41,554 nucleotides of DNA from a virus. A model generated the notes under the pieces. It was not told the origin of the DNA and did no database searches. It was given only the letters and a program-made list of their open reading frames with translations. This document shows positions 296 to 32,873 of the stretch, one piece after another (within the stretch, counting starts at the first letter, position 1; each line of letters starts with the position of its first letter). Location of the stretch: positions 1-41,554 of IMG/VR virus record IMGVR_UViG_3300033047_000019. One strand, written 5' to 3'. The position numbers and the translations under genes are program-made.

Positions 296-1120
296 TTAAC
301 TTTCTTTCCAATTATGTTGTTCGTGAAACTTCTTACCAAAATAATGGCGGTATTGAAATGGGCAGCGCTTCGGGCTTGGATCAGATGAATGTACTTCGCC
401 ATGTTTGTTTGCATAACCCGCGATAGCTTTCCAGCGTTCTTCGTCTTTATTGGCAAAACCGCCATTAAATTCAGGCTTGTCGAGGAAGTGTTCAAACTTC
501 TCTTGATTGAGCATTGTTTGAAGTCCGGGAGCATATTTATGGTTTTCTCGGGAAACGTCCACTGAGTGATAGTACCACTTAACTGCGGATGAAACCTTAT
601 CAACCCCGTGTTCTTTAATCGCCGCGAGGAATTTCTTTTGGCTGGTTTTCTTTGATGATCTGGTAAAGACGCTAGGCGGGATAGCCTGCTTAAGGTATTC
701 CCATAATTCTAAAAACTTAGCTTTGTTTTCCTTCGCGCACGTTGTTGATGTATTACTTGATGTATTAACTGAAGTATTAGTGTGCCGCTGTGGAAACACC
801 TGAGATGCCGCTGTGGAAACACAGTTTTCGTCAGAGGAAACACCTGAAGGCCATGCGGCTTCATAAACACTTAGCTTCCATTTTTTACCTGCAAACCCCA
901 TTTTTGACTTTGTAATCCAACCTGAGTTCTCAGCAATAGCTATATGTCGGTTGACTGTATTTAAACCCATTCCAGATAAATCGGCTATTCGCCTTTGGGA
1001 GGGATAACAAGATTGCCCCGTTTCAGTCATATGACAAGCCAGCGTATGCAAAACCAGTTTTGTCATTGGCTTTAAATCAGCGTCCATGAAGGCTTGTCGC
1101 CATGAGAAAAACTTACTCAT
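296..1120 (-). CDS. Winged-helix replication initiator (lambda O / DnaD-like role)
   Basis: Residues 1-85 form a helix-turn-helix region typical of phage replisome organisers: a conserved opening FSWRQAFMDADLKPMTKLVL, then YPSQRRIADLSGMGLNTVNRH as the recognition segment. A Ser/Thr/Asn-rich linker follows, then a C-terminal domain (FLELWEYLKQAIPP...KYAPGLQTMLNQEKF) of the kind found in proteins that deliver helicase to an origin. I chose the ATG at 1120 because AGAGG stands about 8 nt upstream; a GTG at 1222 lies too close to the predicted transcription start. The DnaB-type helicase gene is just upstream on the same strand. The linker-coding DNA carries the candidate origin repeats (745-847). 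Function is inferred from family resemblance and context. Confidence 0.8.
   Translation of the reverse strand: MSKFFSWRQAFMDADLKPMTKLVLHTLACHMTETGQSCYPSQRRIADLSGMGLNTVNRHIAIAENSGWITKSKMGFAGKKWKLSVYEAAWPSGVSSDENCVSTAASQVFPQRHTNTSVNTSSNTSTTCAKENKAKFLELWEYLKQAIPPSVFTRSSKKTSQKKFLAAIKEHGVDKVSSAVKWYYHSVDVSRENHKYAPGLQTMLNQEKFEHFLDKPEFNGGFANKDEERWKAIAGYANKHGEVHSSDPSPKRCPFQYRHYFGKKFHEQHNWKES
745..847. other. Candidate replication origin inside the initiator gene
   Basis: Three consecutive AT-rich 12-mers lie at 745-780 (TTGATGTATTAC, TTGATGTATTAA, CTGAAGTATTAG). Next come two exact 17-bp copies of TGCCGCTGTGGAAACAC at 783-799 and 806-822, then a shorter copy (GGAAACACCTGA) at 836-847. The shared GGAAACAC cores are 23 and 21 bp apart, about two helical turns. 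The two 17-mers are translated in different frames (VFPQRH and CVSTAAS), so protein repetition does not explain them. Iterons plus an AT-rich unwinding element inside the initiator gene is the lambda O arrangement; assignment as an origin is inference. Confidence 0.6.
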
Positions 1121-4085: not shown

Positions 4086-5069
4086 ATGTCAAACAGGGAA
4101 TTTAAAAAAATGGCAAATAAACAAAAAATACAAGTGAAAATTGTTCGTGACGACCAGCGTGTAACCGGAGATGGGTTCTACATAATGAACAACGAACATT
4201 ACCATACAGACTGTGCAAATGCACCTTCAGTATCATCCAGCGAACTAATCAAGATTGATGATAGCCCGCTAGAGTATTATGACCAATCTCACTACAATCC
4301 AAATGCTGAAGAGAAAAAGACTATGACGTGGTTTAGCTTTGGTAATGCCGCGCACGAACTTATCTTAACCGGCGATCTGGACAAAGACAAATACGCTGTA
4401 CGGCCAGAAACATACAAAACTTGGCGCGGGAAAGACGCCCAAGAATGGAGGGCATTCAGAGAGGCCGAGGGGAAGGCATGCTTGGCTATCGACGATCTGG
4501 ACAACCTTGAGGGCATGGCAGAGGAACTTCAGAAGCACACTATAGCCAAAGAGGTGTTCAAGTCTGGCTTTGTTGAAGGCTCTATGTTTGTCCAAGTTGG
4601 CGGCGTATATGTAAAAGCCCGTCCAGACATTATAACCTTCCAAGACCTGAGCGTGGTGAATGACTATAAGACGTGTAACTCCACACATCCGACGGCCATC
4701 AAATATGACATCAAGAAATACCAGTATGAAACCAAACTGGCCAATGTAGCATTTTGTAAGATGCGGCTATTCGGGATCAAGAGTATTGATGATCTATCCT
4801 TCATCTTAATATTTCAGAAGAAAACACGGCCTTGGGGCATCTCGGTTATTCCAATCGACAAAGACCTTATCTTTAATCGGGTAGCACAGAACCTTGCGGC
4901 TATTGAAATATTTGAGCAGGGCATGGCAACCGGAGAATGGCCAGACAGAACGCCCGACTTCAAACCCTACAACATATCTAGTTGGGACCAGAGTGCTCTC
5001 TTGGAGAAAATCCAGACGGGCATCTACCCGAATATCGACAGCACACTCACAGTACAGAAAGCTAAATAA
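4086..5069 (+). CDS. RecE-like exonuclease (PD-(D/E)XK, exonuclease VIII family)
   Basis: The residues fit the family: FGNAAHELIL at about 85-94 (the G-x-x-x-H element), then KARPDII with D181, and VNDYKT with D193 and K195 as the nuclease core, followed by YQYETKLANVAF. Such enzymes resect dsDNA ends to expose 3' single strands for the partner annealing protein. The recT gene follows with a TAATG overlap, the classic RecET pairing. The start is uncertain: the ATG at 4086 lacks an obvious ribosome site, while an in-frame ATG at 4110 has AGGGA upstream. It is the first gene of the rightward early operon, behind the dyad at 4042-4063. Confidence 0.85.
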   Translation: MSNREFKKMANKQKIQVKIVRDDQRVTGDGFYIMNNEHYHTDCANAPSVSSSELIKIDDSPLEYYDQSHYNPNAEEKKTMTWFSFGNAAHELILTGDLDKDKYAVRPETYKTWRGKDAQEWRAFREAEGKACLAIDDLDNLEGMAEELQKHTIAKEVFKSGFVEGSMFVQVGGVYVKARPDIITFQDLSVVNDYKTCNSTHPTAIKYDIKKYQYETKLANVAFCKMRLFGIKSIDDLSFILIFQKKTRPWGISVIPIDKDLIFNRVAQNLAAIEIFEQGMATGEWPDRTPDFKPYNISSWDQSALLEKIQTGIYPNIDSTLTVQKAK

Positions 5070-6181
5070 TGACTGATAAAAAGAATGAAATATCCGTAAC
5101 ACGGGACAAGCGCAGAACCGAAGCAGCCAATGTTGGTGTGAAAACCTTGGCGGGATCAATGGTTGTCGCACCGAGCAACATGTCGGAGATGATGGACTTC
5201 TGCCAAATGATGGCACAGGCGGGGGTAGCAGTTGGGCCAGTGTGCCGTGAAAATCCGGGTGCCGCCTTTGCTATTACAGATATGGCTATGCGTTGGGGTA
5301 TAAGCCCGTTTCAAATGAGCCACAAGGTTTACACCGTCAAAGATAAGTCTGGTGTCGAGCGGTTGGCGTATGAAGCACAGTTGGTAAACTCTGTCATTCA
5401 ATCCAGGGCGCCAATCCAAGGCCGGCTTAAAATCACTTATGCAGGAGAAGGCCCAAGCCGGACTTGTACCGTTTCAGCACTACCGATTGGTGAGGACGAG
5501 CCAGTGACATACACGTCACCAACATTGGCAAAAGCAAAGCGCAGGAGCCCCCTATGGAATGACGATCCAGACCAACAGCTTGCGTACTATAGCCAGAGAG
5601 CCTTTGCCCGCAGGCACTTCCCTGATATTCTTATGGGTGTTTACACCGAAGACGAGATTGAGGACAGCAGGGACTATGAGGTAAAAGAGAAGTTGGAAAA
5701 CCTTAACAAGCCAGACGAAGGCGACATGCAGTTTGAGGTCGAGGTTATCTCTTCAGACGGTGAAGTCATTGAAGAAGCCGATGTGGAGCAAGCTCTTGAG
5801 CAGAAACCGGATGAAGGAGAGGATGTAAGCTCCGCTGAGGACGAAACAGATGATGTGGAGCCATTACCCGAAAAAGAACTAAAGGCCAATGCTGAAGCGG
5901 CTGAGGAGCCCGTAGAGCCTGTTGAAGATGATAATGTGGACGCGGAAGTGCTGGGAAAAGATATAGGGCTTGAAATGACCGCCGACATGACAGATTGGAT
6001 GTACTATCTGAACGAAGCGCAGGACCCAAATGACATTGCAGCCAACTGGACACGCGAAGGCAAGAACGAGAAGTGGCGCTGGGAAATATCCGACGAGCAA
6101 GCCGCGTACCTGAATAAAGCTACACAAGACAGGTGTGGGGTATTGTTTAATGAAAATGTAATTGATGGAGATGCGAAATGA
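5069..6181 (+). CDS. recT: RecT-family single-strand annealing protein with acidic C-terminal extension
   Basis: The first ~200 residues match RecT: ITDMAMRWGISPFQMSHKVY, then YEAQLVNSVIQSRAPIQGRL, and RSPLWNDDPDQQLAYYSQRA near the end of the core. It would anneal ssDNA exposed by the exonuclease encoded just upstream (TAATG overlap). Residues about 215-315 are very acidic (runs of Glu/Asp with Pro and Ala). They are followed by a compact segment WMYYLNEAQDPNDIAANW to the end, making the protein (370 aa) longer than a typical RecT of about 270 aa. The tail may recruit a partner or ssDNA-binding protein; that is inference. Confidence 0.9.
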   Translation: MTDKKNEISVTRDKRRTEAANVGVKTLAGSMVVAPSNMSEMMDFCQMMAQAGVAVGPVCRENPGAAFAITDMAMRWGISPFQMSHKVYTVKDKSGVERLAYEAQLVNSVIQSRAPIQGRLKITYAGEGPSRTCTVSALPIGEDEPVTYTSPTLAKAKRRSPLWNDDPDQQLAYYSQRAFARRHFPDILMGVYTEDEIEDSRDYEVKEKLENLNKPDEGDMQFEVEVISSDGEVIEEADVEQALEQKPDEGEDVSSAEDETDDVEPLPEKELKANAEAAEEPVEPVEDDNVDAEVLGKDIGLEMTADMTDWMYYLNEAQDPNDIAANWTREGKNEKWRWEISDEQAAYLNKATQDRCGVLFNENVIDGDAK

Positions 6182-31438: not shown

Positions 31439-31584
31439 TAGAAATAGTCCATAGCTGCTGACAATATACCAATGGCCAGGCACCCACACCCAAAACCAAA
31501 ACCAAAACCAAAACCAAAACCAAAACCAAAACCAAAACCAAACTGCCAACCCATCCGGAATATCTTATCTTCAGCCGTTCTCAT
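31438..31584 (-). CDS. 48-aa microprotein with (FG)9 repeat and hydrophobic C-terminus
   Basis: The frame starts at 31584 with ATG overlapping the previous stop (TAATG) and ends at 31438 in another TAATG. Both couplings favour this frame over the Phe-Trp one. It reads MRTAEDKIFRMGWQ, then Phe-Gly nine times, then CGCLAIGILSAAMDYF. The Gly-rich hydrophobic end could insert in a membrane. The repeat DNA is a perfect hexamer array (31490-31537), so unit gain or loss changes length without shifting the frame. Function unknown. Confidence 0.65.
   Translation of the reverse strand: MRTAEDKIFRMGWQFGFGFGFGFGFGFGFGFGCGCLAIGILSAAMDYF
31490..31537. repeat. Perfect (CCAAAA)8 hexanucleotide array
   Basis: Eight exact copies of CCAAAA on the plus strand (TTTTGG on the minus), followed by a partial copy. 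It encodes the FG dipeptides of the 31438-31584 gene. Such perfect arrays are prone to slippage in replication. Confidence 0.97.
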
Positions 31585-32607: not shown

Positions 32608-32873
32608 TCAAATTTTTTCCAGCAGTAACAACCCAATTTTCACAAACTCGGAACTATATCCCTCCCAATTACCATAAGCCGCAAAAACACAAAATTACAA
32701 AAAGACACAAAAGTAACTAAACTTATTTCTAAAAAAAAACTAAAAATACAAAAATAATTTGAGGGAAATGCTTATAGTGTAATCTGTTGATTGGTAATTT
32801 CCGGAAGGGGTTCACCTATAGGATTTAGATAAGAGTAGTGTTATTGTCCTTACGGTAGTTTATCATAAGAGGA

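Follow-up and report, generated by a model that had tools for sequence, protein, structure and literature searches.

Does the initiator gene of this phage also hold the origin at which its product would start replication? The window, that is, the whole stretch of 41,554 bases analysed from an IMG/VR virus record, carries on its minus strand (296-1222) a gene for a winged-helix replication protein (Pfam HTH_36, PHROG 270). In the middle of this gene stand two exact copies of the 17-mer TGCCGCTGTGGAAACAC, at 783-799 and 806-822, and a degenerate third iteron, TTCGTCAGAGGAAACACCTGA, at 827-847 (core 834-843). The spacing between starts is 23 bp and then 21 bp, in agreement with the sequence-only reading, which had described two exact 17-mers and a partial third with cores 21-23 bp apart. 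The third copy shares GGAAACACCTGA, the 12 bp at 836-847 being identical to those at 792-803, and within the second, positions 811-824 form a perfect dyad, CTGTG-GAAA-CACAG. The stretch at 853-870 was considered as a fourth iteron and rejected, since its score is matched at 60 sites in the window and does not rise above background. Three tandem A+T-rich 12-bp units (TTGATGTATTAC, TTGATGTATTAA and CTGAAGTATTAG), also described earlier, were found again at 745-780 (TRF 745-779, score 49), on the 3' side of the iterons when read along the gene, and are a candidate unwinding element. A 37-bp window from 742 has 24% GC and is among the lowest 0.9% of the whole window; the 100 bp starting at 743 are not extreme, the element being modest over longer windows. 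We consider it highly probable that the iterons and the A+T-rich units are the replication origin of the phage, nested in the initiator gene in the manner of lambda O and P22 gene 18; that the site is bound, and active as an origin, is what we infer.

The repeat test searched for three 16-mers spaced 18-28 bp apart (maximum score 48) and compared the result with dinucleotide shuffles of the gene. The triple in the initiator gene scored 38, against a shuffle mean of 27.7 (s.d. 1.5; z = 6.8), and 0 of 60 shuffles reached it. Simple tandem arrays aside, it was the best repeat of this spacing in the whole 41.5 kb, the next (33) lying in an A-rich tract. Short two-copy repeats do arise by chance, but these values make a chance origin of the array scarcely credible. 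As controls, lambda O gave z = 7.8 and P22 gene 18 gave z = 6.9, and the same test found no signal in the neighbouring genes (the helicase gene of the present phage, lambda P and P22 gene 12). Across 127 long ORFs from seven phage stretches, z exceeded 6 only in the initiators of the present phage, HU1 and P22. The iterons of lambda O and P22 gene 18 lie at 0.39-0.49 of the gene, matching the relative place of those described here, and in both genes an A+T-rich stretch is located 3' of the iterons.

The reading frame differs between the two exact 17-mers, as had been pointed out from the sequence, and the repeated thing is thus the DNA and not a peptide. When the gene was recoded synonymously for the same protein, a repeat of at least 17 bp appeared in 0 of 20,000 trials and one of at least 12 bp in 40 of 20,000. 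The A+T-rich 12-mers share one frame (NTSV/NTSS/NTST), so protein-level selection for the linker is possible for these units. This in-frame arrangement, together with the disorder of the linker, would be expected if the repeats were a by-product of low-complexity linker coding with no function as DNA; nevertheless, the differing frames of the 17-mers and the failure of recoding to reproduce them make such an explanation very unlikely.

By profile, the protein itself falls outside the lambda O Pfam family. HTH_36 was its sole Pfam match above cut-off (9.5e-15), and PHROG 270 ("replication initiation protein") matched residues 30-251 at 3.5e-19, compared to a weak best value of 4.7e-8 among the PHROG O-like families. 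A profile match to the lambda O Pfam family (Phage_rep_O) was absent. Of the earlier proposal of a lambda-O-like origin in the initiator gene, the lambda/P22 iteron architecture therefore stands, supported by the controls and by distant relatives, while assignment to the lambda O Pfam family does not, the domain being HTH_36. The ORF comprises 308 aa from a GTG at 1222; from the sequence, the ATG at 1120 (274 aa, with AGAGG ahead) seems the likelier translation start, and the disorder of residues 1-33 in the structure model bears on this choice. An inverted repeat, GCCAGTGA...TCACTGGC, at 1194-1226 comes after the helicase stop codon and before the likely start of the initiator, and is possibly an RNA hairpin or an operator in the initiator leader.

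The structure model was built on a thin alignment and is poor overall (pLDDT 54.8), and for this reason its fold matches confirm the winged helix only; a Rep-DNA complex structure appears among these weak matches. A PDB sequence search with the initiator returned nothing useful. The winged helix, at about residues 40-122, is the sole confident part of the model. It is followed by a predicted disordered linker (residues 129-165), whose coding DNA consists of the iterons and A+T-rich units, and by a helical C-terminus of low confidence. This layout fits lambda, in which the origin sits in the middle of gene O (PMC7466680).

A DnaB-type replicative helicase had been predicted upstream of the initiator, and its gene was confirmed at 1263-2750 on the minus strand (DnaB_C 1.9e-55 in Pfam; PHROG 19, 4.2e-75), directly upstream of the initiator gene and transcribed in the same direction. 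Adjoining genes at 4086-6181 encode PDDEXK (DUF3799) exonuclease-like and RecT-like proteins, likely a recombination pair. By analogy with lambda, the initiator would bind the iterons and load the neighbouring helicase. Its N-terminal winged helix would occupy the three iterons as dimers, each probably spanning the GTG-GAAA-CAC quasi-dyad, and the resulting protein array may bend the DNA and open the adjoining A+T-rich 12-mers. The C-terminal domain could then bring the DnaB-type helicase encoded by the phage itself onto the opened strand, to be followed by primase and polymerase from the host. The origin DNA would code for a flexible linker between two domains, a part of the protein that tolerates amino-acid changes. 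Because two iterons plus the A+T-rich region form the minimal unit for lambda unwinding (PMC7466680), three copies would suffice.

The repeats could instead be an operator only, at which the winged-helix protein represses its own gene or blocks transcription, with replication starting at another place, such as the A-rich intergenic DNA around 32.7 kb. Any array of sites for a gene's own product could autoregulate, and the weakest-stability DNA of the window is indeed found at about 32,683-32,760, in an intergenic, A-tract-rich stretch. However, that stretch has A-tract low-complexity repeats only and no iterons, and sites deep in a coding region, flanked by an A+T element on the side where lambda and P22 also have theirs, suit an origin better. 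We regard the operator explanation as improbable.

Both contig ends (1-64 and 41454-41554) consist of a 12-bp tandem repeat inside an apparent single minus-strand gene, which encodes ASVR/DSVW repeats and then a DUF6745 domain (Pfam 1.4e-25). Since the two ends fall in the repeat of what seems to be one gene, the genome is probably a circle that was cut at this repeat by assembly. Another repeat, of nearly nine exact CCAAAA copies, lies at 31490-31542 in a small minus-strand ORF and encodes WFWFWF. Cumulative GC skew marked no origin at the iterons; it reverses at about 9.1 and 33 kb, where gene orientation switches. At fourfold sites (4086-40838), the AT skew shows an excess of A on the plus strand in both halves of the circle and, whichever their orientation, in most genes. 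The sameness of this skew in both halves shows no bidirectional origin. The pattern suggests a transcription-independent strand asymmetry and perhaps unidirectional replication.

Close relatives of the initiator protein were found neither in viral contigs nor in 84,980 genomes, so the comparison was made with distant initiators. The initiator genes of HU1, ctRVW222, an Agrobacterium plasmid/prophage, L067, L071, L080-L082 and L084-L087 carry their own, differing iterons, 20-24 bp apart and at 0.25-0.48 of the gene, with a low-GC stretch mostly 3' of them. Among the viral contigs found with HU1, 11 of 21 gave z of at least 4.6, although some are near-duplicates and some have an in-frame 21-bp or 24-bp spacing to which protein repeats could contribute. 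The iteron 15-mer of the present phage occurs in 39 viral contigs, with one copy in each. No relatives of ctRVW222 were found.

It had been predicted that conservation of the repeats would exceed codon needs. This was observed in three pairs of initiators with the same layout, the query gene having no close relatives to align. Synonymous codons were identical at 19 of 19 positions inside the iterons and at 59 of 118 elsewhere for HU1 and L067 (p = 7.6e-6), at 19/19 and 103/144 for L085 and L087 (p = 0.0028), and at 7/7 and 37/87 for L069 and L072 (p = 0.0037). These three diverged pairs were the informative ones; three others could not tell, through high similarity or a shortage of comparable sites. 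A multi-family alignment (A2) was too diverged for scanning.

Not every related initiator follows this design. Burkholderia phage KS9 gp46 has detectable sequence similarity and the same order of helicase gene and then HTH initiator gene, but no iterons were detected inside the gene. The same is true of the KS9-group Burkholderia phages as a whole (L053-L065), the closest by BLAST and with the same gene order; their origin must lie elsewhere or have another spacing. A search with a pair alignment (A3) found only Burkholderia-type phages and L066, whose initiator gene is truncated by the contig end; none had iterons in the gene, and nothing was found in genomes.

The sequence-only reading had joined lambda-like replication to a T7-like virion. 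The second part is not supported, as the major capsid protein is 52-54% identical to those of the podoviruses BPP-1, phiV10, BcepC6B and HU1. Nor is a nested origin in a short-tailed phage new. Pseudomonas phage HU1, with the closest capsid type, has iterons (CTTCGGAAAAYACGAA) 22-23 bp apart at 0.41-0.47 of its initiator gene (L051:5930-6643), and a DnaB-type helicase gene adjoins it; however, that initiator is only distantly related and the helicase gene follows it. P22 is likewise short-tailed, with an O-like initiator whose gene (18) contains iterons of about 20 bp and an A+T-rich stretch (PMC8022706), and its own DnaB-type helicase gene (12) adjoins. The iteron sequence and initiator family of P22 are different, and its helicase gene comes after the initiator instead of before it. 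The lambda origin in gene O shares direct iterons with an internal dyad, 20-24 bp apart and at 0.39-0.46 of the gene, and an A+T-rich element 3' of them. In contrast to the present phage, lambda has four iterons rather than three, an initiator of the Pfam lambda O family, and uses host DnaB through P where this phage encodes its own helicase.

Similar nesting is known from Firmicutes. In SPP1, oriL is within gene 38 (PMC6316719), so initiator sites again lie inside the initiator gene, but the protein family is another one and the helicase loader is separate. In pSK41-type RepA_N plasmids, the origin is inside rep; in pSK41 it is central and codes for a dispensable linker joining the DNA-binding N-terminus of Rep to its DnaD-like C-terminus (PMC5703833), the same layout as in the initiator studied here although, again, in another protein family.

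It is well supported that this locus is a further example of the lambda/P22 nested-origin design rather than a system of a new kind. Its iteron sequence is, by comparison, new and unlike the iterons of lambda, P22 or HU1, and among lambda, P22 and L the iterons within the initiator gene likewise differ from phage to phage (PMC8022706). A likely origin is thereby located in an uncultured short-tailed phage for which no close relatives were found. The lambda-type layout recurs among initiators that share almost no sequence: iterons, followed by an A+T-rich stretch, lie where the gene encodes the linker that joins two domains. Many phage origins could therefore be annotated by a simple search of initiator genes for repeats. 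An origin in the linker-coding stretch between the winged helix and the helicase-recruiting domain might even be the widespread default of unrelated winged-helix phage initiator families, with iterons and recognition helix changing together, a proposal that we take seriously without quite expecting it to hold. If it were true, sequence would suffice to read off origins and initiator specificity in a large share of uncharacterised phages.
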